A DNA stretch of 64,000 nucleotides from Komagataeibacter xylinus NBRC 15237 (GTDB lineage Bacteria > Pseudomonadota > Alphaproteobacteria > Acetobacterales > Acetobacteraceae): the NCBI RefSeq assembly GCF_001571345.1, contig NZ_BCTP01000014.1, positions 1 to 64,000 of the forward strand, written 5' to 3'. Position numbers and translations under genes: made by a program. The notes beneath the pieces were generated by a model. It worked only from the letters and a program-made list of their open reading frames with translations. It was not told where the DNA came from and did not search any database. How positions within the stretch are numbered: the first letter of the stretch is position 1; each line of letters begins with the position of its first letter. Below, piece by piece: positions 2,393-63,908 of the stretch.

Positions 2393-2471
2393 AAAGTTTT
2401 TGGTGAAGCTTTTTTCAAAAAGCTTCGAAGAACGCCGCCTTTTTGAAAAAAGGCGGCACCCAAAAACTTTT
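2393..2471. repeat. Cruciform intergenic repeat (copy 2, complete)
   Basis: This is a textbook copy. An outer inverted repeat (AAAGTTTTTGG ... CCAAAAACTTTT) encloses two perfect hairpins, GAAGCTTTTT/AAAAAGCTTC and GCCGCCTTTTT/AAAAAGGCGGC. Folded, it would be a three-way junction on either strand, and each hairpin has an A/T tract as in Rho-independent terminators. It lies between the convergent priA and the FAD oxidoreductase gene. Confidence 0.9.
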
Positions 2472-2485
2472 ACTTCTTTAAGGCT

Positions 2486-4171
2486 TTACTGCGCCTCCGT
2501 GGCATGGGTCATGCCCCGGTGCAGCGCCTGCTCCACATCCCGCCCCGCCAGCGACAGGGCCACTGCCTCGGCAATGCGGATGCCGTCAATACCCGCCGAG
2601 AGGATGCCCCCGGCATAGCCCGCCCCCTCGCCTGCCGGGAACAGCCCACGCAGGTTCACGCCCTGCCCGTCCACCCCGCGCGGAAGGCGCAGCGGGGATG
2701 AGGTGCGCGTCTCCACCCCCGTCATCACCGCATCCCGCATGGAAAAGCCTGCCAGCTTGCTGTCAAAATGCGGCAGGGCCTCGCGCATGGCCTCAACGGC
2801 AAAATCAGGCAGGCAGGCCGACAGGTCAGTGGGTGTCACGCCGGGGCGGTAGGACGGTACGACAGCGCCAAGCGTGGTGGAGGCCACGCCATCGAGGAAG
2901 TCGCCCACCGTCTGCGCGGGCGCGAAATAGGCCCCGCCCCCGGCCACGAACGCACGCCGCTCCCATTCGCGCTGGAAGGCGATGCCCGCAAGCGGGCCGC
3001 CGGGATAATCGCGCTCCGGCGTCACCCCCACCACCAGGCCTGCATTGGCGTTGCGCTCGGCACGGGAATACTGGCTCATGCCATTGGTCACCACCTGCCC
3101 CACCTCGGATGTGGCGGCCACCACCGTGCCGCCAGGGCACATGCAGAAGGAATAGACCGCGCGGCCATTGCTGGCGTGGTGCACCAGCTTGTAATCCGCA
3201 GCGCCCAGCAGCGGCACGGCCTCGGGCTGGCCATAGCGGGCGGTGTTGATGACCGATTGCGGGTGCTCGATGCGCACCCCGATGGAAAACGGCTTGGCCA
3301 CCATGGCAACGCCTGCCGCATGCAGCGCGCCAAAGGTATCACGCGCGCTGTGGCCAATGGCCAGCACCACGTGGCTGGCTGCGATCTCGTCCCCATCCGC
3401 CAGGCGCAGCGCGCGGATGCGCTGCCCCCCCGCGCCGTCATCACCGGTCACGAATTGGGTTACGTGCGCGCCAAAGCGGTATTCGCCGCCCAGCGCCTCG
3501 ATCTCGGCGCGGATATGCTCGACCATCGACACCAGCCGGAACGTGCCGATATGCGGGCGCGAGAGGTATTCGATCTCGGGCGGTGCGCCCGCGCGCACGA
3601 ACTCGGCCAGCACCTTGCGGCCATAATGGCGCGGATCGCTGACCTGGCTGTACAGCTTGCCATCGGAGAAGGTGCCCGCACCCCCTTCCCCAAACTGCAC
3701 GTTACTCTCGGGATTGAGGATGGATTTGCGCCACAGGGCAAAGGTATCGACCGTGCGCTCGCGCACCACCTTGCCGCGCTCGAGCACCAGCGGGCGCAGG
3801 CCCATCTGCGCCAGCACGAGGGCCGCCATCAGCCCGCATGGCCCCGCCCCGATCACCACCGGGCGCGTGAAGCCGGGCCGGGCCGCAAGGGCCGGGCCAT
3901 CATCCACTGCAAAACGGTAGGTGGTATCAGGCGTGGCCATGATGTTGCGCGCGCCTGCGTGGGCGGCGAGCACGGCGGCCTCGTCACGCACGGCGCAGTC
4001 CACCGTATAGACCAGCATCACGCGGTGCCGGTGGCGGGCGTCATGACCACGGCGGAAAATGGTGATGGCCTCGATCTCCGCCGTTGCCACACCCAGCCGT
4101 TCGGCCACCGCCTGTTCCAGTGCGGCGTCGTCATGCGCGATGGGCAGGCGCAGTTCGGTCAGTCGGATCAT
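2486..4171 (-). CDS. NAD(P)/FAD-dependent oxidoreductase, COG2509 type
   Basis: The protein is 561 residues. It has an N-terminal ~95-residue domain of the kind found in 'uncharacterised FAD-dependent dehydrogenases', then a dinucleotide-binding motif VVIGAGPCGLMAALVL near residue 103. The FAD-binding fold continues to a C-terminal GEGAGYAGGILSAGIDG segment typical of FAD contact loops. The substrate is unknown for this family. The start is placed at MIRLTELRLPI because the open frame upstream (to 4231) has no family-like residues. It is monocistronic and divergent from the CDF genes. Confidence 0.85.
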   Translation of the reverse strand: MIRLTELRLPIAHDDAALEQAVAERLGVATAEIEAITIFRRGHDARHRHRVMLVYTVDCAVRDEAAVLAAHAGARNIMATPDTTYRFAVDDGPALAARPGFTRPVVIGAGPCGLMAALVLAQMGLRPLVLERGKVVRERTVDTFALWRKSILNPESNVQFGEGGAGTFSDGKLYSQVSDPRHYGRKVLAEFVRAGAPPEIEYLSRPHIGTFRLVSMVEHIRAEIEALGGEYRFGAHVTQFVTGDDGAGGQRIRALRLADGDEIAASHVVLAIGHSARDTFGALHAAGVAMVAKPFSIGVRIEHPQSVINTARYGQPEAVPLLGAADYKLVHHASNGRAVYSFCMCPGGTVVAATSEVGQVVTNGMSQYSRAERNANAGLVVGVTPERDYPGGPLAGIAFQREWERRAFVAGGGAYFAPAQTVGDFLDGVASTTLGAVVPSYRPGVTPTDLSACLPDFAVEAMREALPHFDSKLAGFSMRDAVMTGVETRTSSPLRLPRGVDGQGVNLRGLFPAGEGAGYAGGILSAGIDGIRIAEAVALSLAGRDVEQALHRGMTHATEAQ

Positions 4172-4308
4172 GGGCGGGTTTTTCCGTGGCTGGTGGCAGT
4201 GCGGGAGCCATATCACGCCGGGGCAGCGCACAGGAATGTGCTAAATGCTGGTGACGCGCCGTAACCTTCTGCTAGGAAGGCGGCGATACCCTGCCCCTCC
4301 CGATCAAT

Positions 4309-5493
4309 ATGGATTCAGGCCCCATGGGCGAATGCCAGCACAACCATGGCGCGGATGGCCATGACCACTCCCATGACCATGCCGCCCCGCCAGCGCATGG
4401 TCCGGCCTGCAATGGCCACGACCACGCGCAGGACGCCCATGCGCACCCTGAGCAGGCTCCCACCGGGTCTGACGCGGGCCATGACTGCGGCCATGACCAT
4501 GACGCCCATGCGGGCCACGACCATGCCGATGATGGGCATGAGGGGGGCTGCGGGCACAATCACGGGCATGGCGGCGGACTGTTCGGCCACCACCATGTGC
4601 ACACGCCTGCCTCCTACGGGCGGGCGTTTGCCATCGGCATTGCGCTCAACCTTGTCTATGTAGCGGGCGAGGCGGTGTGGGGCGTGCGCAGCCATGCGCT
4701 CTCGCTGCTGGCCGATGCGGGGCATAACCTGTCCGACGTGCTCGCACTTGGGGCGGCATGGCTGGCCGAAATCCTCTCGCGCCGCTCGCCTACCGCCAAT
4801 TTCACCTACGGGCTGCGGCGGTCCTCCATACTGGCGGCACTGGGCAATGCCGTGGCCCTGCTGGTGGTGACCGGCGGCATCATGTGGGAGGCCGTGCTGC
4901 GGCTGATCCACCCGCACCCGGTGGCAGGCGTTGCGGTGATGGTAGTGGCCGGGATCGGCATCGTGGTGAACGGGCTGACCGCGCTGCTGTTTGCCAGTGG
5001 GGGCAAGAAGGACCTCAACCTGCGTGGCGCATTCGTGCACATGGCATCCGACGCCGTGATGGCGCTGGCCGTGGTGGCGGGTGGCGGCCTGATCCTGCTG
5101 ACCGGCTGGCTGCGCATCGACCCCGTCATCTGCCTTGTGGTGTCGCTTTCCATCATTCTCGCCACATGGTCGCTGCTGCGTGATTCGCTCGACATGGCGC
5201 TTGACCGCGTGCCGCGTGGCATCGACCCTGCGGCCGTCGATGCCTTTTTGCGCACGCTGCCCGGCGTGTGCGACCTGCATGACCTGCATATCTGGCCCAT
5301 CAGCACCACCGAAACCGCGCTGACCGTCCACCTCGTGCGCGGGGCAGGCGAGCAGGGCCATGCGCCTGATGGCCTGCTGAACCGCGCGGCAGCCGAACTG
5401 CAGGCCCGCTTCGGCATTGTTCACCCCACCTTGCAGATTGAAACCCTGACCGATGCCAACCAGTGCATTCTGGCCGAAGCCCACTCCGTCTGA
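4309..5493 (+). CDS. Cation diffusion facilitator with His-rich N-terminus (zinc exporter, CzcD/ZitB-like)
   Basis: This is a 394-residue inner-membrane metal/proton antiporter. The first ~100 residues hold about 25 histidines and four cysteines in HDH/GHDHD clusters, a likely cytosolic metal buffer. The membrane domain follows, with the zinc-type HxxxD sites GHNLSD in TM2 and HMASD in TM5, and ends in a small cytoplasmic ferredoxin-like domain (DLHDLHIWPIS). The HxxxD pairs point to Zn(II) (family knowledge); the metal is not proven. A second CDF gene starts 22 bp downstream, probably in the same transcript. Confidence 0.9.
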   Translation: MDSGPMGECQHNHGADGHDHSHDHAAPPAHGPACNGHDHAQDAHAHPEQAPTGSDAGHDCGHDHDAHAGHDHADDGHEGGCGHNHGHGGGLFGHHHVHTPASYGRAFAIGIALNLVYVAGEAVWGVRSHALSLLADAGHNLSDVLALGAAWLAEILSRRSPTANFTYGLRRSSILAALGNAVALLVVTGGIMWEAVLRLIHPHPVAGVAVMVVAGIGIVVNGLTALLFASGGKKDLNLRGAFVHMASDAVMALAVVAGGGLILLTGWLRIDPVICLVVSLSIILATWSLLRDSLDMALDRVPRGIDPAAVDAFLRTLPGVCDLHDLHIWPISTTETALTVHLVRGAGEQGHAPDGLLNRAAAELQARFGIVHPTLQIETLTDANQCILAEAHSV

Positions 5494-5515
5494 TCGCAAG
5501 GACCGCCTGTTCAGC

Positions 5516-6418
5516 ATGTTTGCCCGTACCGACCCCAAGATCCGCGCGGCCTGGTGCAGCGTTGTCGTCAGCCTCATCGCCCTGGGCATGAAATACGCCG
5601 CATGGCGCGTGACCGACAGCATCGCGCTGTATTCCGATGCCATCGAGACCATCATCAACGTGGTCTCCGCCGTGGCCGGGCTGTGGGCGCTGCGGGTGGC
5701 AAGCCTCCCGCCCGACCACAACCACACCTATGGCCACTACAAGGCCGAATACCTCTCCGCCGTGGCGGAAGGGGTGCTGGTGGTCATTACCGCCATCACC
5801 ATCGCGCATGAGGCGTGGATCGGCTTCCAGCACATGCATGCGCCACAGGATTCGCTGATGGGCATTGCGCTCAATGGCGGCGCGGGCGTGCTCAACCTGG
5901 TGTGGGGGCTGTTCCTGCTGCGGCTGGGGCGGGCGCGCCATTCACCCGCACTGGTGGCGAGCGGCCACCATGTGCTGTCCGATGTCTGGACATCGGCGGT
6001 GCTCATCACGGGGTTCGTGCTGATTCCGCTCACCGGCTTCCTGTGGCTCGACCCGCTGCTGGCCGCCCTGATTGCGGTGAACGTGCTGCGCACGGGGTGG
6101 GAGATGATGCGCACCTCCATCGCGGGACTGATGGACGAGGCCCCCAATTCCGAGACGCTGGGCGAGATCCGCTCCATCATCTCGCACACAGCCACCGGCG
6201 CCATTGAGGCGCATGACATCCGCGCGCGCATTGTCGGCGCCATGACGTTTATCGAGTTTCATCTTGTCGTGCCCGGCGCCATGAGCGTAGAGGAAGCCCA
6301 CCACATATGCGACCGGGTTGAGGATGGCCTGCGCGCGGGGCTGGGCGATGCGCTGATCAACATCCATGTCGAGCCGGAACGCAAGGCCAAGCATACCGGC
6401 GTGCTGGTGCTGCCCTGA
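5516..6418 (+). CDS. Second cation diffusion facilitator (FieF/COG0053-like)
   Basis: The protein is 300 residues with six expected TM helices and a C-terminal cytoplasmic domain (EFHLVVPGAMSVEEAHHICDRVE). Its TM2 site reads SDAIET and TM5 reads SGHHVLSD, unlike the HxxxD/HxxxD pair of the upstream CDF, so metal preference probably differs. The HxYGHYKAEYLSA stretch is typical of COG0053 members. The start is ATG 5516 (MFARTDPK); the open frame runs upstream into the previous gene's 3' end. It is probably co-transcribed with the upstream exporter. Confidence 0.87.
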   Translation: MFARTDPKIRAAWCSVVVSLIALGMKYAAWRVTDSIALYSDAIETIINVVSAVAGLWALRVASLPPDHNHTYGHYKAEYLSAVAEGVLVVITAITIAHEAWIGFQHMHAPQDSLMGIALNGGAGVLNLVWGLFLLRLGRARHSPALVASGHHVLSDVWTSAVLITGFVLIPLTGFLWLDPLLAALIAVNVLRTGWEMMRTSIAGLMDEAPNSETLGEIRSIISHTATGAIEAHDIRARIVGAMTFIEFHLVVPGAMSVEEAHHICDRVEDGLRAGLGDALINIHVEPERKAKHTGVLVLP

Positions 6419-6550
6419 CCTGGCAGAAGGGGCGGATATTCTGCCAGTGACCGCCTGACCTGCGATAAATACCACCCCTGCCGGGCAACCGGATGGCCTA
6501 AACCCGGTTTTACCCGTTTCAGGGCAGTTGCTGAAAGTACGTTACCGGGC

Positions 6551-7918: not shown

Positions 7919-7920
7919 CA

Positions 7921-7999
7921 GAAGTTTTTGGTGAAGCTTTTTGCAAAAAGCTTCGGAAAACGCCGCCTTTTTGAAAAAAGGCGGCACCAAAAAACTTTT
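7921..7999. repeat. Cruciform intergenic repeat (copy 3, complete)
   Basis: It has the same architecture as copy 2, with hairpins GAAGCTTTTTGCAAAAAGCTTC and GCCGCCTTTTTGAAAAAAGGCGGC inside an outer arm pair. It lies between the convergent ClC and glycosyltransferase genes. The loop of the first hairpin has changed while both stems stay perfect. Confidence 0.9.
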
Positions 8000-9035
8000 A
8001 TCCGTTTTTTGTCTTTATCACCCGGTCGTAAAAGGCCAGCCATTGGTTGGTTACGGCCTGCGGCGTAAAGCCTGCCTCGTAATCGCGCGTGCCGCCTGCC
8101 CTGATCCTTGCTGCAAGGGCGGAATCATCAAGCACCGCGCGGATGGCGGTAGCCAGGGCCGGGGCGTCATCAATCGGCACCAGCATGCCGTTTTCGCCAT
8201 TGCGGATATGTGCCTTTGGTCCATCCGCCGCACAGGCCACCAGCGGCACGCCTGCGGACCAGGCATCGAGTATCACGGTGCCAAACGGCTCATAGCGCGA
8301 GGGCAGCACGCACAGATCCGCTGCTGCCAGCAAGGCCCCCCGGTCCGAGCGCCAGCCCAGAAAATGCACCCGATCCGCCACCCCCAGCCTTGCCGCCTGC
8401 GCGCCAAGGGCCGCACGCAGCTCGCCCTCGCCTGCCAGCCATACATGGCAGCGCGGCAGGGCGGGCACCGCGTCAAGCAGGGTTTCCAGCCCCTTGGCCG
8501 GGTGCAGGCGCGAGAGCACCAGCAGCACCGGGGCATCGGGCGGCGTATCAAGTGCGTGCCGTGATACCGGCGGCTGCGGTTTTACGGAGGGGAAGGTGGG
8601 AATATAGGCCACGCGCTCCGCTGGCGCGCCACGCGCCACCATCGAGGCCGCCATATCCGCCGTGCAGCCCACAAACCAGTCGCAATGCGCAAAGGCACGC
8701 AGATCCTTGTAATTGCCGAACCAGCCAATCACCGGCACCCCGGTGCCCGCAGGCACGATCTCGGCAGCGCGCCGCAGCCAGCAATGAATGAGGTCGGGCC
8801 TGACGCGCCTGATCAGCCGCCGCATGGCGTAGCGGGCGGCAGAGCGGAGCGGCAGGCGCAGCGGGCCGGTATCCACCTGCATGCCCGCAGCGCGCATGGC
8901 GGGCACGCGGGGGGCGGCAGGGTGCATGACCACGCCCTGTTCAAGCCCGGCCTCATGCAGGCTGCACATGACATCGGTCGCATAAAGCTCCGCCCCGCCA
9001 TTGCCCCTTGCCGCCATGACATGCAGCACCCGCAT
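7998..9035 (-). CDS. Glycosyltransferase, GT4 family
   Basis: This is a 345-residue GT-B enzyme of the GT4 type. The N-terminus reads MRVLHVMAARGNGGAE, as usual for GT4 acceptor-side Rossmann domains. The donor-binding half has VLLVLSRLHPAKGLETLLDA near residue 175 and the E-x7-E motif YEPFGTVILDAWSAGVPLV near 250. Donor and acceptor sugars cannot be told from sequence; cell-surface polysaccharide synthesis is the likely pathway. Only 22 bp separate it from the WD40 gene upstream, so it may be the last gene of that transcript. Its stop codon overlaps the edge of the cruciform repeat. Confidence 0.88.
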   Translation of the reverse strand: MRVLHVMAARGNGGAELYATDVMCSLHEAGLEQGVVMHPAAPRVPAMRAAGMQVDTGPLRLPLRSAARYAMRRLIRRVRPDLIHCWLRRAAEIVPAGTGVPVIGWFGNYKDLRAFAHCDWFVGCTADMAASMVARGAPAERVAYIPTFPSVKPQPPVSRHALDTPPDAPVLLVLSRLHPAKGLETLLDAVPALPRCHVWLAGEGELRAALGAQAARLGVADRVHFLGWRSDRGALLAAADLCVLPSRYEPFGTVILDAWSAGVPLVACAADGPKAHIRNGENGMLVPIDDAPALATAIRAVLDDSALAARIRAGGTRDYEAGFTPQAVTNQWLAFYDRVIKTKNG

Positions 9036-9057
9036 GCGTTTTCCGCCCCCTGCTGCT

Positions 9058-19556: not shown

Positions 19557-19559
19557 GCC

Positions 19560-20039
19560 ATGGCGCGCAGGCCCGCACGCAAGGCAGCCCCGGCGCAACA
19601 GGCTGACCTGTTTGCGCCCGCTGCGCGCCCTGCGCCGCCACCTGCGCCTGCGCCACTGGCCGACCTGTCCGCACTGCCCCCTGTCGCACCCGAGTTATGG
19701 GCGCGGCTGGCCTACTCGAAATTCCGCGCCCGCTTTCACCTTGGGGCCAGGGAGCAGGCGTATCTGGCCAGCCGGGGCCTGCCTGAAGTCATGCGCCACG
19801 CAGCCGACTTCATCGCCACCCGCCTTGCCCCCGCGCAGCCCGCGCGTGATGGCAGGCAGACTCCATGGCGCGGGCACCCGGTGTTCATTGCCCAGCATGC
19901 CACCGGCACCTGCTGCCGGGGCTGTGTGGCCAAATGGCATGCCATACCGGAAGGCGAGAAGCTTGATGCTGCGCAGCAGGCCTACCTTCTGGCCGTGATC
20001 CAGGCATGGATCAGGCGCGATGGCAGCCAGCAATCATAA
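19560..20039 (+). CDS. DUF4186 family protein
   Basis: This 159-residue protein of unknown function has an Ala/Pro-rich N-terminal ~45 residues, then a conserved core: LWARLAYSKFRARFHLG, the HAADFIATRLAP segment, GHPVFIAQHATGTCCRGC with paired cysteines, and a final VIQAWIRRDG. The CCxxC and nearby His residues could bind a metal (inference). It starts three bases after the tyrS stop and so is probably co-transcribed with it. Confidence 0.85.
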   Translation: MARRPARKAAPAQQADLFAPAARPAPPPAPAPLADLSALPPVAPELWARLAYSKFRARFHLGAREQAYLASRGLPEVMRHAADFIATRLAPAQPARDGRQTPWRGHPVFIAQHATGTCCRGCVAKWHAIPEGEKLDAAQQAYLLAVIQAWIRRDGSQQS

Positions 20040-20040
20040 G

Positions 20041-20085
20041 CAAGTCTCTGGTAAAGCTTTTCCCCAAAAGCCTTGAACGGCGTCT
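20041..20085. repeat. Cruciform intergenic repeat, degenerate remnant (copy 4)
   Basis: The left arm and first hairpin are recognisable (CTGGTAAAGCTTTTCCCCAAAAGCCTTGAACGGCG), but the GCCGCC hairpin is lost. It lies between the convergent DUF4186 and Rieske genes. Confidence 0.6.
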
Positions 20086-20093
20086 GGCGACCG

Positions 20094-22381: not shown

Positions 22382-22460
22382 AAAGTTTTTGGGTGCCGCC
22401 TTTTTTCAAAAAGGCGGCGTTCCTTGAAGCTTTAAAAAAAAAGCTTCACCCAAAACTTTT
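22382..22460. repeat. Cruciform intergenic repeat (copy 5)
   Basis: A complete copy in inverted orientation relative to copy 2: the GCCGCC hairpin comes first, then a GAAGCTTTAAAAAAAAAGCTTC hairpin with a slightly altered loop. It lies between the convergent secreted-protein and GT4 genes. Confidence 0.9.
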
Positions 22461-28346: not shown

Positions 28347-30347
28347 ATGACGCAACCCACGGGGCCTGTTGCCCCCGGATCCTCAACGACGCCGGATGGC
28401 GGCGCGCACCCCGTGCCTGCCGCACAGCAGGCCAATGCCGCGCCCAAGATTACCGAATACGGCGCCGACCAGCACGAGCATGCCGCGAACCCGGTCGGCT
28501 TTGCCGCCCTGCTCAGCGTGCTCGGCGTGGTGTTTGGTGATATCGGTACCAGCCCGATCTACGCCCTGCGCTCGACCATCATGGTCGTGTCGCAGCACCA
28601 CAAGATCGAGCCGTGGGAAATACTGGGTGTCCTGAGCCTCATCATCTGGTCACTACTGCTGATCGTGACGGTGAAATACGTCATCCTGATCATGCGCGCC
28701 GACCATAATGGCGAAGGCGGGATCATCTCGCTCATGTCGCTGGCCCAGCGCGTGGCACCGAGCAACCGCATGCGCATCGCGCTCGGCATGGTGGGAATCG
28801 GCGGCGCGTGCCTGTTCTTTGGCGATGGCATGATCACGCCCGCCATTTCCGTGCTCTCGGCGGTGGAAGGGCTTGAGGTCAGTTTCCCCGCCGCCCATGA
28901 CCTGGTCATTCCCATCGCACTCCTGGTGCTGGTGGGGCTGTTCTCGGTGCAGTGCTACGGCACGGGCAAGGTGGGCACCATATTCGGCCCCATCATGCTG
29001 GTGTGGTTCAGCCTGCTGGGCATCCTTGGCGGGCTTGAAATCCTGCACCACCCCAAGGTGCTGCTGGCCATCTCGCCCACCTATGCGGTGCAGTTCATCG
29101 TCTATCACGGGTGGCTGTCGTTCATTGCCCTTGGCTCGGTGGTGCTGTCGGTTACGGGTGCGGAAGCACTTTATGCCGATATGGGGCATTTCGGCCGCCA
29201 GCCCATCCGCTATGCGTGGCTGTTCTGCGTGCTGCCGTGCCTGGCGCTGAACTACCTGGGCCAGGGCGCGCTCATCATCTCCGAGCCCAAGGCGCTGGAG
29301 AACCCGTTCTTCCTGCTTGGCCCGCACTGGATGCAGGTGCCGATGATCATCCTGTCCACCATGGCCACGGTCATTGCCAGCCAGGCGGGCATTTCGGGCG
29401 GGTTCTCGCTGTGCCGCCAGATCATCCAGCTTGGCTACCTGCCGCGCCTGCGCGTGACCCACACCAATGCGGAGGAAGAAGGCCAGATCTACCTGCCCGA
29501 GTTCAACCGCTTCCTCATGGTGGGCGCGCTGCTGCTGGTGCTGGCCTTCCGCAGTTCCGATGCGCTGGCCTCGGCCTACGGCATTGCGGTGACGGGCACG
29601 TTCATGTGCACCTGCGTGCTGGCCATGGTGGTGTTCCGCAGGCTGTACCACTGGTCGCGCCCTGCGGCGATTGCCACGTTTGGCGGCTTCTTCCTGCTTG
29701 ATACGACGTTCTTTGCGTCGAACGCGCTCAAGATCCCGCAGGGCGGCTGGGTGCCGGTGCTGCTGGGCGTGGTGCTGACCCTGATGATGACGACCTGGAA
29801 AAAGGGCCGTCAGCTCATCATGAACCGGCAGAAGCAGGACAGCATGCCGATGAACTCCTTCCTGGCCCGCCTGCCGCAGTCGCGCATCATCCGCGTGCCG
29901 GGCACGGCGGTGTACATGACCGGCAACCCCGATTTCGTGCCCGCCTGCCTGCTGCACAACCTGAAACACAACAAGGTGCTGCACGACCACGTGCTGTTCG
30001 TGACCGTGCAGACGCTCGACCAGCCCGAGGCCGATCATGGCCACCGCGTGGCGTTGCAGGAGCTTGCGCCCGACATCTACCGCATCATCCTGCGCTACGG
30101 CTTCATGGAAATGCCCAACCTGCCCCGCGCGCTGGAAGACCTGAAGGCAAGCGGGCTGGACTTTGATGCGCTGCAGGCCTCGTATTTCACCAGCCGCGAG
30201 CTGCTGGTGCGCTCATCGGTGCCCAAGCTTTCACGCTGGCGCATGTCGCTGTTCCTGTTCATGGCGCGCAATGCGACGCCGGCGACCGAGTTCTTCCGCA
30301 TTCCGCCTGACCGCGTGGTGGAGCTGGGCGTGCGGCTGGGGATCTGA
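28347..30347 (+). CDS. kup: Low-affinity potassium transporter Kup
   Basis: This 666-residue K+/H+ symporter has 12 TM helices in the first ~480 residues, beginning [18 protein letters not shown], with [19 protein letters not shown] and [15 protein letters not shown], then a cytoplasmic C-terminal tail. The N-terminus has a ~50-residue polar extension ([19 protein letters not shown]). The start is ATG 28347 ([11 protein letters not shown]). A cruciform repeat follows the stop codon. Confidence 0.96.
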
Positions 30348-30358
30348 TAAAAAAAGAC

Positions 30359-30440
30359 AAAAGTTTTTGGGTGCCGCCTTTTTTCAAAAAGGCGGCATTC
30401 TTTTTGAAGCTTTTTGAAAAAAGCTTCCCCAAAAACTTTT
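30359..30440. repeat. Cruciform intergenic repeat (copy 6)
   Basis: A complete copy with hairpins GCCGCCTTTTTTCAAAAAGGCGGC and GAAGCTTTTTGAAAAAAGCTTC. This one lies between two genes in the same direction (kup and hemW), where it would separate the transcripts. Confidence 0.88.
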
Positions 30441-33319: not shown

Positions 33320-34381
33320 ATGACGCGCCTGTTTCTGCTTGCTATTGCAGGCCTCGGGCTTGCCGCCTGCGCCACGTCACCCGGCGGGGGTGGCAGCAGC
33401 CACACGCATGCCAGCTATGGCAGCTACTACAAGGGCAAGGCCGCCTACCGCCCGCCAGGTCCTGCGACCGACCCGTGGCAGCCCTATATTGCCGATGCCT
33501 CCAGCCGTTTTTCCGTGCCGCAGGAATGGATTCGCGCCGTGATCCAGAAGGAATCGGGCGGGCACGAATATATCGATGGCCGCCTCACGCGCTCGGCCAG
33601 CGGGGCGATCGGGCTGATGCAGCTCATGCCGCCCACCTATGCCGAGATGGAGCGGCGCAATCACCTCGGCTCCGACCCGTATGACCCGCACAACAACATT
33701 CTCGCGGGCACGGCCTATATCCGCATCCTGTACGGGCTGTATGGCGCGCCCGGCTTCCTTGCCGCCTATAACGCAGGCACGGAACGGCTGAACGATTACC
33801 TTGAAAAAGGTCGCCCGCTCCCCAGCCAGACGGTTCGCTACCTACGCATCATCACCCCCAATCTTGGCAATGAAGTGGCACTGAGCGGGCCGCTGGCGGT
33901 TTATGGTTCTTCCGGCCAGCGGGTAACATCCACGCCCACGCCGCTGGGCAACGGCACCACCATCCAGCCCGACCACACCTATGTGCAGTACGCGACCCTC
34001 AACCCGCCCGCCCCCGTGCAGCACCGCACGGCCTGCGTGCATGATGCCAACCTCGCCTATGATCCCGGCAGCAGCGCCTGCCACACCGATGCCCGCACGG
34101 CTGCCGCCGCGCCCAGTGCCGGTGCCGGATATGGGGCATGGATGGTGCAGGTTGGCGCGTTTTCAGCCGAGGGGCAGGCCCGCTTTGCCAACTCCATGGC
34201 GCGGCAGGGTGACTTTGCGGCCCTGCAGGGCGCGCGCAGCCTGGTCATTCCGGTCCGGCGGCCCGCGGGCGTGATCTACCGCGCCCGCCTCGCCGGGCTT
34301 TCGCAATCCGCCGCGACACGGGCCTGCGCCACGCTGAAGGACCAGGGCCTGCCCTGCACCGTCATCCGGCCCGGAGAGTAA
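33320..34381 (+). CDS. Lytic transglycosylase lipoprotein with C-terminal SPOR domain
   Basis: The protein is 353 residues. A lipoprotein signal peptide ends in LGLAACATS. An SLT domain follows with the catalytic Glu in QKESGGHEY near residue 78, then GAIGLMQLMPPTY and FLAAYNAGTERLNDY. After a low-complexity linker a SPOR domain (WMVQVGAFSAEGQARFAN...) occupies about 270-350. SPOR domains bind denuded septal glycan, so a cell-division-associated peptidoglycan lyase is likely (inference). The start is ATG 33320, because the lipobox then falls at the right distance. Confidence 0.9.
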   Translation: MTRLFLLAIAGLGLAACATSPGGGGSSHTHASYGSYYKGKAAYRPPGPATDPWQPYIADASSRFSVPQEWIRAVIQKESGGHEYIDGRLTRSASGAIGLMQLMPPTYAEMERRNHLGSDPYDPHNNILAGTAYIRILYGLYGAPGFLAAYNAGTERLNDYLEKGRPLPSQTVRYLRIITPNLGNEVALSGPLAVYGSSGQRVTSTPTPLGNGTTIQPDHTYVQYATLNPPAPVQHRTACVHDANLAYDPGSSACHTDARTAAAAPSAGAGYGAWMVQVGAFSAEGQARFANSMARQGDFAALQGARSLVIPVRRPAGVIYRARLAGLSQSAATRACATLKDQGLPCTVIRPGE

Positions 34382-34418
34382 GAAACTGTTCGAAAACAGT
34401 TCATTGATGAAAAACAAC

Positions 34419-34497
34419 AAAAGTTTTCGGGTGCCGCTTTTTTTCAAAAAGGCGGCGTTCTTCAAAGCTTTTTGACAAAAGCTTCACCAAAAACTTC
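34419..34497. repeat. Cruciform intergenic repeat (copy 7)
   Basis: Both hairpins are present with small defects (GCCGCTTTTTTTC...GGCGGC and AAAGCTTTTTGACAAAAGCTT). An upstream extension GAAAACAGTTCATTGATG at ~34392-34410 is shared with the copies near 43000 and 46190. It lies between the convergent transglycosylase and GH3-like genes. Confidence 0.85.
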
Positions 34498-42391: not shown

Positions 42392-42975
42392 TCAAACAAT
42401 GGGCCGCGACAGCGTCGGGGTGGCCAGCCCGGCGGCACAGGCCCGGATGATATTATCCGCCTGATGTACTGCCTGCATCGGGACACTGATCGATAACGCT
42501 CTGGAAAATCGATGCGGGCATATGCCCCGTGACCTCGCCATGATAGCCAACAATCTTGAAATCGAACCCCATTTTGGCGACCTAGTAGAATTCATCCTTT
42601 GACAGTTTGATGGCGCCGCGTTCCTCGATCAGGCAGCCGTCCGCGCCCATACAGGCATGAGCATCCGATCCCAGGTCGTTATAGGTGTATTGATGCCCGT
42701 CGCTCCACACGGTTACAGGCGACAGGCGACAGGCGACAGGCGACAGGCGACAGGCGACAGGCGACAGGCGACAGGCGACAGGCGACAGGCAGCTTATATG
42801 AGTTATATTCAATTCCCACCGCGTAGCCCTTGCCCTGCACATATGTGGCGATGGTATTCAATGTCTGGAGCAGTCCGGAATGATCCGTATGCTTGCCCGA
42901 AACACAGGCCGTGGCGCCAGTGTATTTGTCATGTACTATCTGCGGGTGGCTCGGACATCCGCCAAGAGCCAGCAT
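42392..42975 (-). pseudogene. Decayed gene for a small lipoprotein-like protein, interrupted by a 7-bp VNTR
   Basis: Three minus-strand reading segments appear to belong together. Segment 1 runs from MLALGGCPSH at 42975 (LGGC lipobox-like) to GIEYNSYK just before the tandem repeat. Segment 2, in another frame, reads WSDGHQYTYNDLGSDAHACM to LSKDEFY, then a TAG at ~42582, and continues VAKMGFDFKIVGYHGEVTGHMP. Segment 3, in the third frame, reads HQADNIIRACAAGLATPTLS to a stop at 42392. So there is a repeat-induced frameshift, a nonsense codon and a second frameshift. No full signal peptide remains upstream, where a cruciform repeat begins. The original family is unknown. Confidence 0.65.
42721..42790. 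repeat. Heptanucleotide tandem repeat (GACAGGC)x10
   Basis: There are ten perfect copies of GACAGGC, preceded by one imperfect unit (TACAGGC, 42714-42720). Seven is not a multiple of three, so each gain or loss shifts the minus-strand frame. The repeat is the kind that changes copy number by replication slippage. Confidence 0.97.
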
Positions 42976-43030
42976 GACAGCACCAGACCCTGAAACACTA
43001 CTTGAAAACAACCCATTGATAAAAAATGAT

Positions 43031-43109
43031 AAAAATTTTTGGGTGCCGCCTTTTTTCAAAAAGTCGGCGTTCTTCAAAGCTTTTTGAAAAAAGCTTCACC
43101 CAAAACTTT
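43031..43109. repeat. Cruciform intergenic repeat (copy 8)
   Basis: Both hairpins are present, one with a single stem mismatch (GCCGCC...AAGTCGGC). The extension CTTGAAAACAACCCATTGATAAAAA is seen just upstream (~43003-43030). Unlike the others it lies on the 5' side of the decayed minus-strand gene, that is, between divergent units. Confidence 0.88.
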
Positions 43110-43276
43110 CTTCTGTTTTTGCCGCCACCTTCACGGGCAACAGGTTGGTGACTGTGCCTTTTGGCCGCATACCTCTTTCCTTTAGATTCCTGACGCGTGT
43201 GCGCGAAGTATGGGAACAGCATAAAAGTTCCCTTCACACTATTTTATTTATTCACAACCATAACGTGCAAACTGCA

Positions 43277-46169: not shown

Positions 46170-46212
46170 ACCCCATGCCCCGTTAAGACATTGCTTGAAA
46201 ACAACTCATTGA

Positions 46213-46292
46213 TAAAAGTTTTGAGGTGCCACCTTTTTTCAGAAAGGCGGTGCTCCTCGAAGCTTTTTGCAAAAAGCTTAACCAAAAAACGT
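46213..46292. repeat. Cruciform intergenic repeat (copy 9)
   Basis: Outer arms AAAAGTTTTGAGG/CCAAAAAACG and both hairpins are recognisable with some decay (CACCTTTTTTCAGAAAGGCGGTG and GAAGCTTTTTGCAAAAAGCTTA). The upstream extension GAAAACAACTCATTGATAAAA is shared with other copies. Confidence 0.85.
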
Positions 46293-46370
46293 CCTTATGA
46301 TTTCTGGATGTTTTCCGGGCTGACTTTTCAGACAGTTTCTCATGTCTGAACGCAGACCACATGAATGCAA

Positions 46371-46401
46371 ACGGGCCGCATGGCATCACCATGCGGCCCG
46401 T
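46371..46401. terminator. Perfect 13-bp hairpin, possible terminator
   Basis: ACGGGCCGCATGG and CCATGCGGCCCGT flank a 5-base loop. Reading on the minus strand it is followed by TTTGCATT, a weak T-tract. It lies ~180 bp past the porin stop, so it is a candidate secondary terminator. Confidence 0.45.
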
Positions 46402-46516
46402 TGCGTAATCATAAGGGCGTAATGCCCCCTTCAATGCGGCTTGCCGTGGTCACCTGAAGACGGCGTAAAAACACCCACCCACAGAACAGTCTGAAAATTA
46501 CGAACGCATCTGTTTT

Positions 46517-46568
46517 AAAGCTGTTTTCAAAACTTCAGGAAACGCCGCCCCCATGAAGCAGGGCGGCG
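46517..46568 (-). terminator. Rho-independent terminator of the porin gene
   Basis: The hairpin CGCCGCCC/GGGCGGCG (46543-46568) lies 12 bases after the porin stop on the minus strand and is followed by TTTCCTGAAGTTTT. The flanking AAAGCTGTTTTCAAAACTT looks like a degenerate cruciform repeat, so this terminator may derive from one. Confidence 0.65.
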
Positions 46569-46580
46569 CCCCGAAGGCTG

Positions 46581-51062: not shown

Positions 51063-51116
51063 GGAAACTCCTGAAGCGAAACGGGATGCGGGATATTTAC
51101 AAAGCGTTTAAAAATG

Positions 51117-51200
51117 AAGGAAGTTCTGGAATGCGCTTTTTTTCGGGAAGCGTCGAAGATCACGGCCTTTTTGCACGGAACCGCCCCCCGGGAATTCTGA
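51117..51200. repeat. Highly degenerate cruciform-repeat relic
   Basis: GGAAGTTCTGGAATGCGCTT..GCGTCGAAGA and CCTTTTTGCACGG follow the element's order (outer arm, GAAGC hairpin, CCTTTTT), but the pairings are mostly broken. It sits between manC and the unknown membrane protein gene. Confidence 0.4.
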
Positions 51201-55622: not shown

Positions 55623-55667
55623 GCGACTGCCTGAAAAGTTGGCCCGGAAAACATCCAGCACTCATAA

Positions 55668-55750
55668 GAACGTTTCTGGTGAAGCTTTTTTCAAAAAGCT
55701 TCGAAGAACGCAGCCTTTTTGCAAAAAGGCTGCGCCCAAAAACTTTTATC
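55668..55750. repeat. Cruciform intergenic repeat (copy 10) with compensated stem
   Basis: The first hairpin (55681-55702) is the standard GAAGCTTTTTTCAAAAAGCTTC. In the second the usual GCCGCC/GGCGGC stem has changed on both sides to CGCAGCC (55709-55715) and GGCTGCG (55728-55734), so pairing is kept. The tail ATCAATGCGTTGTTTTCAAACAGTCT continues to ~55775. Confidence 0.92.
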
Positions 55751-55762
55751 AATGCGTTGTTT

Positions 55763-56026
55763 TCAAACAGTCTCCGAGCCTTTGGCCTGCTTTTCGGCAC
55801 GGGCGGTCTGACAGTGCTCGGCGGCCTTGCGCAACTGCTCGGCAAGGTTGAGGGCCAGTTCAGGCGGCAGCACGGTCACCACGCGCCTGTCACCCTTGGG
55901 CATGTGCTCGGGCGCTGTCGCCATGAACAGGTCCATCACCACGATGGAATCCTGCACGGCCTCCGCCCCGCAGCTTACGGTGAGGTAGACCACGGCCCGA
56001 CCGGCGGCGTCGCGTTCCTCTTTCAT
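55763..56026 (-). CDS. Small protein of unknown function (last of a three-gene set)
   Basis: The protein is 87 residues, soluble: KEERDAAGRAVVYLTVSCGAEAVQDSIVVMDLFMATAPEHMPKG, then VLPPELALNLAEQLRKAAEHCQTARAEKQAKG (amphipathic helix). I do not recognise the family. The start is ATG 56026, which has GAGGGAG eight bases upstream; an upstream in-frame ATG at 56053 abuts the previous stop and has no ribosome-binding site. The segment VVMDL also occurs in the first protein of the set. Confidence 0.6.
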   Translation of the reverse strand: MKEERDAAGRAVVYLTVSCGAEAVQDSIVVMDLFMATAPEHMPKGDRRVVTVLPPELALNLAEQLRKAAEHCQTARAEKQAKGSETV

Positions 56027-56053
56027 GGCGGGTTCTCCCTCGGGCGGGCGCAT

Positions 56054-56206: not shown

Positions 56207-56227
56207 GTGCAACATCTTCCTTGCAAA

Positions 56228-56645: not shown

Positions 56646-57053
56646 ATGCCGCCCCCCACCATCCCCGATGATGAATTACATGTGACCTACATCCTGGCCT
56701 CGGGACCGGGCGGGCAGAACGTCAATAAGGTGGCAACGGCGGCGCAGTTGCGTTTCGATGCGCGCAATTCCCCTTCACTCTCCGCCCGCGTCAAGAGCAG
56801 GCTGGTTACGGTTGCGGGCAGCCGTATGACGGCGGATGGCGTGATCGTGCTGACCGCGCGGCGCTTTCGCAGCCAGATCCGCAACCGCGAGGATGCCGTG
56901 GCCCGCCTGCATGAGATGATTGCCGAGGCCAGCCATGTGCAGGCCTACCGCGTGCCCACCCGCCCCTCGCGCACGCAGCGCCGCAAGCAGGTGGACAACA
57001 AGAAGCACCGCAGCCGCATCAAGCAGGGCCGCAGCGGCAACCACATGGACTGA
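56646..57053 (+). CDS. arfB: Alternative ribosome-rescue factor ArfB (peptidyl-tRNA hydrolase)
   Basis: The protein is 135 residues. The catalytic GGQ is in ASGPGGQNVNKVATAAQLRFD near residues 20-25, as in class I release factors. A basic C-terminal tail (RPSRTQRRKQVDNKKHRSRIKQGR) would insert into the empty mRNA channel of stalled ribosomes. Length and architecture fit ArfB/YaeJ. It is convergent with the efflux operon; a cruciform repeat lies between. Confidence 0.93.
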   Translation: MPPPTIPDDELHVTYILASGPGGQNVNKVATAAQLRFDARNSPSLSARVKSRLVTVAGSRMTADGVIVLTARRFRSQIRNREDAVARLHEMIAEASHVQAYRVPTRPSRTQRRKQVDNKKHRSRIKQGRSGNHMD

Positions 57054-57063
57054 AGATAAAAAA

Positions 57064-57143
57064 GAAAAGTTTTTGGCGAAGCTTTTTTCAAAAAGCTTCA
57101 GAAGAACACCGCCTTTTCGAAAAAAGGCGGCGCCCGAAACTTC
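57064..57143. repeat. Cruciform intergenic repeat (copy 11)
   Basis: Hairpins GAAGCTTTTTTCAAAAAGCTTC and ACCGCCTTTTCGAAAAAAGGCGGC are in the same arrangement as copy 2. It lies between the convergent arfB and the outer-membrane efflux gene. Confidence 0.9.
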
Positions 57144-57148
57144 CTCCC

Positions 57149-58645: not shown

Positions 58646-58649
58646 TGCA

Positions 58650-61600: not shown

Positions 61601-61775
61601 CCGTATCGGCCGAAGCACCCGGATAGGTCACGGTAATGGCGATCTGCGGCGGCGCGATGGAGGGATACTGCGCGATGGGCAGGCGGAAGATCGACACCCC
61701 GCCCACGAGCATGATGATCAGCCCGATCACCCATGCGAAGATGGGCCGGTCAATGAAAAAGCGCGACAGAGACAT
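58650..61775 (-). CDS. RND multidrug efflux permease (HAE1, AcrB/MexB-like)
   Basis: This is a 1041-residue trimeric inner-membrane drug/proton antiporter. It begins MSLSRFFIDRPIFAWVIGLIIMLVGGVSIFRLPIAQYPSIAPP, as in AcrB, with the proton-relay helix MLAMVLAVGLLVDDAIVVVENVERVM (paired Asp) and a duplicated TM region ending in LLAVYFVPLFFVVVLRLF. Two large periplasmic loops are present. It lies 6 bases after the adaptor gene. Substrates cannot be predicted; the family exports solvents, dyes and antibiotics. Confidence 0.96.
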   Translation of the reverse strand: MSLSRFFIDRPIFAWVIGLIIMLVGGVSIFRLPIAQYPSIAPPQIAITVTYPGASADTVNDTVVRPILQQMFGLDHLEYISSQSYASGQMEIDLTFAQGTNPDIAQVQVQNKLQLAQPKLPQEVTAQGLSITKAVKNFMMVLGFISTDNSMTGADIADYVASNISDPLSRVTGVGDHTLFGAEYAMRIWLDPSKLYKYGLTVGDVQTAIQTQNIQVSSGELGGVPAVKGVRLDATIIGPTRLRSAEAFEKILLKVQQDGSQVRIRDVARVELGPQTYNTHSYYNNMPASGMALKLAPGANQLQTENAVREQIKELEQFFPPGLKTVYPLDTEPFIVLSIKEVVITLIEAIALVFLVMLVFLQNFRATLIPTIAVPVVLLGTFGILAALGFSINTLTMLAMVLAVGLLVDDAIVVVENVERVMTEKKLSPRDAARQSMDEISGALVGIVLVLTAVFLPMAAFGGSTGVIYRQFSITIVAAMWLSVVVAMVMTPALCATMLKPGTHEKTTGAAGWFNRHFARMTTAYQNGVGRVLGHAGLSMLMFVLITVGVGWLFMRLPSGFLPDEDQGLIFGQVTMPAGATLEETAAVNRKIADYVLRTEGNNVESVYSTNGFNFAGQGQTAGAFFIRLKDWDERPAASQTSAAIAMRIMMHFWTDPVAQIFAVNPPAVLELGNATGFDLELEDRGHLGHTKMLAARNMVLGMAAKDRRLTAVRPNGMEDAPQFQLDIDREKANALGITIADINTTIEGALGSIYVNQFLRDDRVKQVYIQGEPDARMIPDDLSKWYIRNATGSMVPFNAFVSGQWIMGPQKVEDYNGLNAFEILGQPAAGYSSGDSIAAMKEILAKLPTGVGYEWTGLSFEQMASGSSTGPLYTLAVIVILFCLAALYESWAIPFAVLLVIPLGVLGAIVATLLRGMANDVYFQVGLLTTVGLAVKNAILIVEFAKAFFENGATLEESVLEAGRERLRPILMTSIAFVVGVFPLAIASGAGSAARVAIGTAVVGGMLTATLLAVYFVPLFFVVVLRLFRVRRLSERTKGA

Positions 61776-61781
61776 GGGGGG

Positions 61782-62924
61782 TTATCCTGCCTTGGCCGGT
61801 TCGGCGGCGTCCTGCGGGGCGACGGTGTCGCCGGAGTGGATTTTCTGCACGCCCTCAAGCACCACGCGCTCGCCGCTTTTCAGCCCGTCGGTCACCAGCC
61901 AGTCCGTGCCGATGGCCTGCCCGACCATGATGGCGCGCAGGCTGACCTTGTTATCGGCATCGACCACCCATACCTGCGGGTCACCGTGGGAGTTGCGCTG
62001 CACGGCCTGCTGCGGCACCAGCAGGGCGGTGGGGTCAAGACCCTCCGCCAGTTGGGCATGCACGTACATGCCGGGCAGCAGCAGCCGCTCGGGGTTGGGC
62101 ATGACCGCGCGGACCACGACGGTGGCGGTGGCTTCATCCACGTTCACTTCCGAGAACTGCATGCTGCCGGAATGCTCGTAGGTCGTGCCATCTTCCAGGG
62201 TCACGGTAATGGAGGCGGCATTGTCGCCCGCGCGCGTCAGCCGCCCCTGCGCCAGCTCGCGCTTGAAGCGCAGCAGTTCGGTCGCGGGCAGGTTCACATC
62301 CACATAGATCGGGTCAAGCCGGGTGACGATGGCGACGTTGTTGGTCTGGTTGGCGGTGACCAGCGCACCCACGGTCAGGATGGAGCGACCGATGCGGCCC
62401 GTGATCGGGGCATTCATGTGGGTGTAGCCCAGATCGACCGTGGCGCGCTCGAGCTGGCCCTTCGCACTCAGGATATCGCCCTGGGCCGCGCGTTCGGCGG
62501 CCAGCGCGTCATCATATTCCTGCTGGCTCACGGCATGGGCCTTGAGCAGCGGCCCGTAGCGGGTAAGCTTGGCGCGCGCCGTGACCTCGCTGCCCTGGGC
62601 ATGCAATAGCTGGCCCTGGGCGCTGTCCACTGCCGCCTGATAGATGCTGGGATCGATCTGGTAGAGCTGCTGGCCCACCTGCACGTCCGTGCCTTCAACG
62701 AACAGGCGCTTCTGGATCACGCCGCTGACCTGCGGGCGCACCTGCGCGATCTCGAACGCTTCGGTGCGGCCGGGAAGCTGGGTGTGAATTTCCACCGGGG
62801 CGGCCTTGAGCGTCATGACCGTAACGGGCTGGGGCGGCATCTTGTGGGGGGCGGCATGCTTCTGGCACCCCGCCAGGGCGAGTATCAGAGCCGCCGGGGC
62901 TACGACACGGGAATATTGCATCAT
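61782..62924 (-). CDS. RND efflux periplasmic adaptor (membrane fusion protein)
   Basis: The protein is 380 residues. A lipoprotein signal (ALILALAGCQKHAA) anchors it in the inner membrane. Lipoyl halves flank a coiled-coil hairpin (IYQAAVDSAQGQLLHAQGSEVTARAKLTRYGPLLKAHAVSQQEYDDALAAERAAQ), followed by beta-barrel and membrane-proximal domains (GRIGRSILTVGALVTANQTN). It is the first gene of the minus-strand efflux operon. The start is taken as ATG 62924; an in-frame TTG lies nine bases upstream. Confidence 0.94.
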   Translation of the reverse strand: MMQYSRVVAPAALILALAGCQKHAAPHKMPPQPVTVMTLKAAPVEIHTQLPGRTEAFEIAQVRPQVSGVIQKRLFVEGTDVQVGQQLYQIDPSIYQAAVDSAQGQLLHAQGSEVTARAKLTRYGPLLKAHAVSQQEYDDALAAERAAQGDILSAKGQLERATVDLGYTHMNAPITGRIGRSILTVGALVTANQTNNVAIVTRLDPIYVDVNLPATELLRFKRELAQGRLTRAGDNAASITVTLEDGTTYEHSGSMQFSEVNVDEATATVVVRAVMPNPERLLLPGMYVHAQLAEGLDPTALLVPQQAVQRNSHGDPQVWVVDADNKVSLRAIMVGQAIGTDWLVTDGLKSGERVVLEGVQKIHSGDTVAPQDAAEPAKAG

Positions 62925-63011
62925 GGTCACCAACCGGCTTGAGGGCCGTAATCTAAAAATGTTTCTGAATCACGTCCGTGCTGTTTGCCGCACATGGCCG
63001 CCATAGGAAAG

Positions 63012-63035
63012 CCAAATAAGGAAACCATTTGGTTT
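63012..63035. promoter_or_regulatory. Nested palindromes, candidate TetR operator of the efflux locus
   Basis: In the 190-bp divergent gap there is a perfect AAACCA-TT-TGGTTT palindrome (63022-63035) and an overlapping inverted repeat CCAAAT...ATTTGG (63012-63032). Position between the regulator and the pump operon fits a TetR-type operator. Confidence 0.5.
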
Positions 63036-63115
63036 TCAATGAATGGAAAACTATATCGTCTCCATAAGGCGGTCAAGCAGGGCACCCATTCAAAAATGGC
63101 CGGAGCAGATTACGA

Positions 63116-63817
63116 ATGAGCAAGATTGGACGGGAAGGACACGGCTCCATGCATGATAACTGTGATACCCCGCGCCGCGGCCCCGGTCGCCCCCCGGAAA
63201 TGGAGGAATGCGAACGCCGTGAACGTATTCTCGACGCAGCCAGCGAAGTGTTGCAGAAATGCGGCTATCATGCGGCCTCGATGGACAAGGTGGCCCAGCA
63301 TTCCGCCATGTCCAAGCGCACGCTGTACCTCATGTTCCATTCCAAGCAGGACCTGTTCCACACGCTGGTCAGCAACAGGCTGTTCAATGTCAGCCTCGGC
63401 AAATGCCTGCACATGGCCGACCCGGTGGAAGAGCTGACCGAACTGCTCATGCGCCTTGGCGGCGTGATCCTGCGGCCTGATCGCATCAGCCTGATCCGCG
63501 CGCTCGTTACCGAATCGCCACAATCGGAAGACATCCGCCAGATCCTGACCAGCCTGCGCGCGGGCGGAAAGGACAATGTGCTCACCGCCTGGCTCGACCG
63601 TTACGTGCGGGCGCGGAACGGGCCGATGGAGAATATATCGATGTACGGCAACATGCTGTTTGGCATGACCATTGGCGACCTGATGCTGCAAAACCTGGCC
63701 TGCGCGCCTGATCAGTCATGGAGCGAGCAGAACATACGGCCGCGTTTTCGCAGGGCTGTGCAGATTTTCCTGACGGGCTTCACCGATGGTTGCCCTGCAG
63801 CTTCACAGAGCGTTTAA
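63116..63817 (+). CDS. TetR/AcrR family transcriptional regulator
   Basis: The protein is 233 residues. The N-terminal HTH (ERILDAASEVLQKCGYHAASMDKVAQHSAMSKRTLYLMFHSKQDLF, ~38-82) is a standard TetR DNA-binding domain. The C-terminal ligand domain is variable (VRALVTESPQSEDIRQILTSLRAGG). It is divergent from the RND operon and so probably its local repressor. ATG 63149 (MHDNCDTPRRG) is a possible internal start. Confidence 0.92.
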   Translation: MSKIGREGHGSMHDNCDTPRRGPGRPPEMEECERRERILDAASEVLQKCGYHAASMDKVAQHSAMSKRTLYLMFHSKQDLFHTLVSNRLFNVSLGKCLHMADPVEELTELLMRLGGVILRPDRISLIRALVTESPQSEDIRQILTSLRAGGKDNVLTAWLDRYVRARNGPMENISMYGNMLFGMTIGDLMLQNLACAPDQSWSEQNIRPRFRRAVQIFLTGFTDGCPAASQSV

Positions 63818-63828
63818 AAATAGCGCTT

Positions 63829-63908
63829 CGCGTTTCGAAGTGCCGCTTTTGTTTACTGACAGCGGCTGCACCTGAAGCTTTTTGAAAAAAGCTTCACCAA
63901 AAACTTTC
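63829..63908. repeat. Cruciform intergenic repeat (copy 12, degenerate left half)
   Basis: The right half is intact (GAAGCTTTTTGAAAAAAGCTTCACCAAAAACTTT). The left GCCGC hairpin is weakened (TGCCGCTTTTGTTTACTGACAGCGGC). It lies between the convergent tetR gene and the gene at the window's end. Confidence 0.75.

Follow-up and report, generated by a model that had tools for sequence, protein, structure and literature searches.

Dispersed inverted repeats behind genes are known from several bacteria, among them the inverted uptake signals of Haemophilus and Neisseria, which are thought to be terminators. In Streptococcus pneumoniae, the repeats RUP, BOX and SPRITE and insertion sequence (IS) elements are enriched between convergent genes, and one reading given in the same work is that such insertions survive where they are harmless (PMC3049150; this and the following papers are cited from the portions available). 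Repetitive extragenic palindromic sequences and bacterial interspersed mosaic elements (REP/BIME) have a proposed role in termination or in the stability of mRNA (PMC3733652), and Rho-independent terminators arising from miniature inverted-repeat transposable elements (MITEs) have been called conceivable, with SPRITE as the case cited (PMC10969869). Here we analyse a dispersed element found in 64,000 nucleotides of Komagataeibacter xylinus NBRC 15237 (contig NZ_BCTP01000014.1, positions 1 to 64,000; the whole of this stretch is called the window). A preliminary description, made from the letters of the window, had noticed about ten copies of an approximately 80-bp three-way-junction element at almost every convergent gene junction and had offered two readings of it, a bidirectional terminator and a miniature mobile element.

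The uptake-signal terminators, likened to this element by description only, are similar dispersed inverted repeats behind genes, and differ in being uptake signals and not MITEs. Like RUP, BOX and SPRITE, the Komagataeibacter element is a short, dispersed, MITE-like structured repeat that is over-represented between convergent genes; the ends of RUP resemble a resident IS and SPRITE resembles a Rho-independent terminator. Unlike them, it belongs to an unrelated taxon (the IS of RUP is IS630-Spn1), has two hairpins within an outer stem, also occurs as a core alone and changes its orientation in place (PMC3049150). With REP/BIME it shares many intergenic hairpins lying mostly in tandem and convergent gaps; unlike REP/BIME, its core consensus by eye has no GTAG or CGTC tag, and CGTC repeats are reported missing from Acetobacteraceae (PMC3733652). 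Many REPs have been reported in Lichenicola cladoniae (PMC12306157), with no link to the Komagataeibacter element shown in the part available. As prokaryotic MITEs do, the extended form described below is non-autonomous, measures about 160 bp and has IS-like ends and a target duplication; unlike MITEs in general, its structured core is also found on its own, with no ends around it (PMC10969869). No description of the element was found in the open-access PubMed Central literature (for the broader searches, among the best-ranked matches), and the available part of a paper on intrastrand triplex repeats (PMC4666352) mentions neither Acetobacter nor Komagataeibacter.

The explanation that we favour, with a probability of about 0.55, is that of a dispersed, orientation-neutral and nearly palindromic element of transcript 3' ends, either terminator or 3'-end stabiliser, which has partly spread as cargo of a MITE. 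The core, which follows stop codons at distances between a few and some tens of bases, would end transcription or block 3' exonucleases and in this way fix the mRNA 3' end; in a convergent gap it would serve the two genes at once, in a tandem gap a single one. Part of its spread would be owed to a 150-165-bp MITE that carries it and that an IS5-family transposase, acting in trans, would insert at TNA targets, stop codons among them. Where the core is useful it would be retained, and the MITE ends around it would decay or disappear.

The core consensus, derived from the alignment of the window copies, is 82 nt long (GAAAGTTTTTGGTGAAGCTTTTTTCAAAAAGCTTCGAAGAACGCCGCCTTTTTGAAAAAAGGCGGCACCCAAAAACTTTT) and is ordered as outer inverted arm, AT-rich hairpin, linker, GC-rich hairpin and opposite arm. 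The outer arms are AT-rich and inverted (AAAAGTTTTTGG / CCAAAAACTTTT) and enclose the two hairpins, both with A/T loops. Three of the ten copies (2393, 22382 and 63829) were folded. The copy at 2393 gave a three-way junction on both strands, with folding energies of -36.2 and -37.1 kcal/mol against shuffle means of -16.5 and -18.3 (z -5.96 and -5.85; 0/200 shuffles as good), and the copy at 22382 folded likewise. The copy at 63829 (z -2.5 and -0.8) has kept the AT hairpin, whereas decay has affected its outer stem and second hairpin. For counting compensatory changes, 129 unique copies were aligned on their sequence, with no use of structure. The GC hairpin showed 22 double Watson-Crick changes versus 4.5 +- 2.0 in shuffled data (0/500 shuffles as many) and the AT hairpin 5 versus 1.3 (5/500 as many), the shuffles ignoring relatedness and the orthologues not being independent; one alternative alignment containing antisense matches was excluded from the analysis. 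The hairpins look constrained as structure and the outer arms, if at all, as sequence. In addition, the 15 nt to the left of the core-only copies (n=32) are 39% A and the 15 nt to the right 41% T, compared with 20% A and 19% T across 22 whole element-free convergent gaps, a comparison that is not position-matched. With an A-rich left and a T-rich right flank, RNA of either strand would present strong hairpins followed by a T-rich tail. The window gave no match in an Rfam scan. With E values up to 10, one core copy and one distant look-alike produced matches well below every gathering score; these near-misses, many of them to microRNA models, were taken as chance.

A half-element pattern with up to three mismatches occurred at 188 places in the genome and its reversed control at none, and a covariance model built from 48 copies gave at least 150 matches in this genome. 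Placement was studied in a 769-kb sample formed by contigs C1-C4 and the window (21% of the assembly), in which non-overlapping matches of at least 25 bits in a sequence-profile search were kept and weaker ones dropped; genes were called throughout with a self-made caller, by which 86% of the sample is coding. Gaps hold 70 of the 72 matches (44 in convergent, 25 in tandem and 1 in divergent gaps), and the other two are at sequence edges. They occupy 43/92 convergent, 24/441 tandem and 1/93 divergent gaps. Convergent gaps make up 10% of the element-masked intergenic bases and tandem gaps 63%, and the convergent preference is therefore far above random expectation (44/70; p = 6e-27). When gene-call gaps were filled with long open reading frames (ORFs), 39/63 placed matches were still convergent (p = 1e-20), and nine further ones fell in ORFs or at edges. 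Inside the window eight convergent gaps were called; copies scoring 25 bits or more occupy seven of them, and the eighth (19557-20093) has a 19-bit remnant. The statement that nearly all convergent junctions are occupied was consequently right locally (8/8 with copy or remnant) and too strong for the genome, as about half of the sampled convergent gaps carry a match.

Copies are also close to gene ends elsewhere. In tandem gaps, 21/25 are nearer to the 3' end of the upstream gene, and their orientation is even (12 same, 13 opposite); stop codons lie at a median distance of 19 nt (n=113), start codons at one of 120 nt (n=27). This placement bears on the possibility that the element acts at DNA level, on gyrase, a nucleoid protein or chromosome structure, as in some REP/BIME proposals. 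The element is palindromic DNA, and its outer arms look alike across the genera inspected and show no covariation in Komagataeibacter, as would be the case for a protein site. However, the near absence from divergent gaps and the closeness to stop codons point to a role in the transcript, and we regard a DNA-level element as very improbable.

Some cores form the centre of a 150-165-bp MITE with terminal inverted repeats GAGACTGTTTGAAAA, which is too small for a transposase gene. Paired ends with up to four mismatches each and 140-185 bp apart were searched in the 769-kb sample, in 30 loci from an end-pattern search of the own genome and in regions of six relatives. This yielded 24 rows, or 23 after dropping one overlapping duplicate, of which 19 hold the core according to a motif test; one of the end pairs without core is possibly due to chance and, separately, one of the 23 is the orthologue of a window element in relative G003 (genomes other than this one are cited by our handles). 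Identical 3-bp flanks border 9/23 end pairs (TTA five times; TCA, TAA, TGA and TTG once each), eight of the nine being TNA, and 14/23 have no identical 3-bp flanks. The flanking TGA at 55623 and the flanking TAA at 34382 are the stop codons of the upstream gene. Paired ends and duplications are the signature of a MITE, and the mobile alternative of the preliminary description is supported for the extended form, core-only copies excluded. Among the 50 matches of at least 55 bits, 32 have no MITE arm, nine have one (4 left, 5 right) and nine have both. Core-only copies would derive from MITEs. Locus L109 (G000:C9:45854-48868) contains two full MITEs, at 1501 and 2698, in the same orientation and about 1.2 kb apart. 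One full MITE was searched in phage records, with no match.

The best-matching autonomous IS was found in genome G013. It is 883 bp long, has ends GAGCCTGTTTG(G/A)AAA and flanks TAA and TTA, and encodes an IS5-family transposase of 274 aa (DDE_Tnp_1, DUF4096, NF033580). One of its ends is identical to the MITE end at 13/15 positions and the other at 14/15 and, at locus L168 of the own genome, its exact 15-bp end is joined to a MITE left arm. An IS with exact MITE ends was not found by end pattern in the own genome, nor among the 30 DUF4096 loci inspected from a longer list of matches in seven genomes. The search for a source element with a transposase produced a near match but not the exact ends, and a transposase of the G013 type may move the MITE. 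IS1031-type elements use TNA targets. As regards the abundance of such genes, contigs C1-C3 of G002 gave 63 DUF4096 transposase matches, the most of seven genomes (14-47 in the others), many of them alike in score and in having a 278-aa frame.

The orthologous regions of the window were compared in six close relatives; for G003, G006 and G008 the species names were verified through sequence held in common with named loci. The full MITE at 46187 is present in this genome only and absent in G003, G008, G004, G018 and G015 (5/5 resolved; interval 46170-46580), and that at 55623 is present in G003 and absent in G008, G004 and G018 (3/4). Sister genomes thus have the empty sites expected of a mobile element at both full MITEs, and no clean empty site with duplication was seen at the core-only junctions aligned. 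Deletions of the core leave one arm and a T-rich tail (34382, 57054, 2379 in G006), and some copies have a single hybrid hairpin made by deletion. Along contigs C1 and C4, with thresholds of 25 bits for own matches and 18 bits for those of the relative, 20 core-only sites compared with G003 were 16 same, 2 opposite and 2 absent, one-arm sites were 3/3 same and, of four full MITEs, one had the core only in G003 and three had no core match there. At one of these last three loci, C4:27218, G003 has the MITE arms with the core deleted, so that a new insertion in this genome is not the explanation there. The same comparison with G004 gave 21 same, 1 opposite and 2 absent of 24 core-only sites, 2 opposite and 1 absent of three one-arm sites, and two full MITEs with and two without a core match.

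The core was reversed in place with matching flanks at window positions 2379 and 22364 and at C1:137693. Junction 2379 was followed in 16 genomes: the core is present in 12/14 resolvable ones (5 plus, 7 minus), two have short remnants and two could not be resolved. On a 16-tip tree of three neighbouring genes, with 12 tips scored, at least three changes of orientation are needed; the backbone support of this tree is low (34-54), firmer groups being this genome with two K. xylinus genomes (89, 98) and K. swingsii with K. diospyri (86). Since the reversed copies have other letters in hairpin and linker as well, replacement by another copy via the arms is as possible as a true inversion. At junction 7919 the core is present in 7/15 resolvable genomes, all of them in this genome's own clade.

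These comparisons also speak to a selfish MITE without function, which would jump widely and survive only at harmless places, downstream of genes or in convergent gaps. In its favour, full MITEs do exist, some of them recent, the pneumococcal RUP, BOX, SPRITE and IS share the convergent excess (PMC3049150), and losses by deletion occurred at several junctions, often leaving one arm, with junction 7919 empty in 8/15 genomes. But such a MITE would hardly leave all except 24 of 441 tandem gaps free when these hold 63% of the masked intergenic bases, the core persists at junction 2379 in 12/14 genomes of the genus, and the pairing of the GC hairpin is kept by compensatory changes while 32/50 strong copies have no MITE arm. 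We consider a purely selfish MITE unlikely; selection may have retained the core.

The terminator half of the preliminary description fits the placement behind genes, the changes of orientation in place, the compensatory changes of the GC hairpin and the A- and T-rich flanks, and on these grounds the core would act on RNA. However, several results weigh against our explanation. An intrinsic-terminator consensus scan of window positions 1-60000 flagged one core only (30369-30400) and one MITE arm (46303-46319), and in total it found 12, 13 and 11 sites, against 11.1, 11.5 and 17.1 in shuffles, which is no excess. In most cores a classic U-run does not lie directly behind the GC-rich hairpin; the flanks are T-rich and contain no classic run. 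Canonical terminators are not depleted at element-bearing ends in convergent gaps of at least 30 nt (21/86 versus 16/54 without element, p = 0.56), in all convergent ends (21/86 versus 18/98) or in tandem gaps of at least 100 nt (4/23 versus 13/147), and the idea that the element replaces canonical terminators was discarded for this lack of anti-correlation. At C1:137693-137884 a canonical-looking terminator even adjoins the core; it is kept in both relatives and the core is reversed in one of them.

The remaining contrary points concern other genomes and the fold. The convergent excess was not significant in 400 kb of G002, G004, G009 and G018 (5 convergent, 12 tandem and 0 divergent; p = 0.36), a test with 17 matches, none of them in G002, and with poor gene calls (only 64% and then 73% called coding). 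The first gene call had given 6 convergent and 11 tandem (p = 0.14) and, after long-ORF filling (86-89% coding), 5 of 13-14 placed matches were convergent (p = 0.16-0.17). The outer stem shows no covariation (12 double changes versus 15.4 expected; 450/500 shuffles as many), and covariation was weak overall in the smaller 48-copy alignment. Template switching can also yield compensatory changes in DNA hairpins. Finally, the eight empty sites at junction 7919 count here too. Part of these data would suit an element that only stabilises mRNA 3' ends, its hairpins stopping exonuclease trimming while Rho or other terminators act further on: the hairpins are strong and mostly lack the classic U-run, and canonical terminators coexist with the element. 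For stabilising alone, the A-rich and T-rich flanks on two sides would be superfluous, and we judge this restricted role improbable.

The element is not confined to this strain. Each of 18 further genomes searched within the genus had at least 35 matches, counts in these genome-set searches being lower bounds that may include both strands of one near-palindromic place; the same search found a match in 1/17 genomes of other Acetobacteraceae genera and in 0/24 of other families. Among 150 genomes of the family, 21 had matches, from 14/102 genera. In one further genus, g97, copies score as highly as those of this genome (112.9 bits), and the remaining genera have divergent look-alikes with best scores of 50-63 bits or less. 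In the region around one window gene, 80 named loci gave matches in 11/13 Komagataeibacter and in 0/67 others. Matches were also found on plasmids of Komagataeibacter, Novacetimonas and Pseudoroseomonas (n=8: 3 convergent, 4 tandem and 1 not resolved, with incomplete public annotation), two of the four tandem ones being the same place in two K. saccharivorans strains. Plasmids of Pseudoroseomonas cervicalis carry half-length matches. A 42-base match on a Clostridioides difficile plasmid was taken as chance.

Nearly all of the 26 look-alike copies examined, from seven genomes, have retained arms of the type AAAAGTTTTT(T)G and CAAAAA(A)CTTTT, and their stems differ (GGTTC/GAACC, GCTTC/GAAGC, GTGGGGGC/GCCCCCAC); in single-sequence folds some form a three-way junction and some one long stem. 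Of 42 look-alike loci fetched, three were dropped as opposite-strand repeats of another place, and the 39 left, which were chosen by score, comprise 22 tandem, 9 convergent, 2 divergent and 6 not resolved. The likeness may reflect common ancestry or only common architecture. We put forward tentatively, as a proposal that we would not yet expect to hold, that these sequences form a family-wide class of mobile, orientation-neutral bidirectional terminators. In such a class a three-way-junction 3'-end module would keep its arms by sequence and have its hairpins replaced genus by genus; MITEs would deliver it to stop codons, junctions would recruit it, and copies would be replaced or flipped as either orientation works.

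All ten copies reported in the preliminary description are present and alignable in the window, on both strands. On the plus strand, the core copy 2393..2471 lies in the convergent gap 2379-2485, the junction where both orientations occur among genomes. The plus-strand core copy 7921..8000 fills the convergent gap 7919-7997, whose size and orientation are the same in the five close relatives compared. The minus-strand core copy 22382..22459, in a convergent gap, is reversed in G004, G006 and G015, and the minus-strand copy 30358..30439 stands in the tandem gap behind gene 28347-30347 in all six close relatives; its linker variant places TTTTT behind the GC hairpin. The minus-strand copy 34379..34497, in a convergent gap, consists of a core (34419-34497) and a right arm (34379-34416) that begins at the stop codon TAA, and only short remnants of it are left in G004, G006, G015 and G018. 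Also on the minus strand, 42992..43110 combines a core (43031-43110) and a right arm (42992-43030) without left-arm match, in a 1.7-kb gap with uncertain genes; before it, positions 42715-42791 contain about 11 tandem copies of the 7-bp unit ACAGGCG. The two full MITEs are 46187..46339 (minus strand, 153 bp, core 46213-46292, flanks TGA/TTA) and 55623..55774 (plus strand, 152 bp, core 55668-55748), the left end of the latter coming directly after the upstream stop codon TGA. The plus-strand core copy 57066..57143, in a convergent gap, is partly deleted in G004 and lost in G018 with a short arm remnant left. Finally, the half-degraded minus-strand core copy 63830..63908 follows a plus-strand gene at a distance of 12 nt, and about 1 kb further on comes the next called gene, on the same strand as that gene.

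The four remnants that had been listed proved to be of unequal value. That at 46517 is a weak plus-strand copy (46514..46575, 28.1 bits) in the same convergent gap as the MITE 46187, with matches of 23-38 bits in the five relatives compared, and those at 20041 and 51117 are marginal. The former (20042..20080, plus strand, 19.3 bits) lies in a convergent gap whose orthologues score better (71 bits in G008, 65 in G015 and 61 in G006), and the latter (51138..51189, plus strand, 17.5 bits) lies in a tandem gap, with weak matches also in G003 and G004. Positions 1..58 (plus strand) hold the right end of a copy that the contig start truncates, with the core end at 1-17 and a right-arm remnant at 25-58 (19.9 bits). 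Two degraded copies have a common adjoining stretch, GCGTTTAAAAAT (51104-51115 and 63810-63821), possibly the edge of another subfamily. As for the single tandem and the single divergent copy claimed before, 30359 and 43031 were both classified as tandem and no clearly divergent copy was found in the window.

If the core does form transcript ends, about half of the sampled convergent gene pairs (43/92) would owe that end to one repeat family that is partly mobile, and this would be a clear case of transposon cargo adopted as a standard part of gene expression. Because presence, absence and orientation vary between close species, the effect would be measurable in natural comparisons. Komagataeibacter is used for making bacterial cellulose, and a native two-way terminator would therefore be of practical use.

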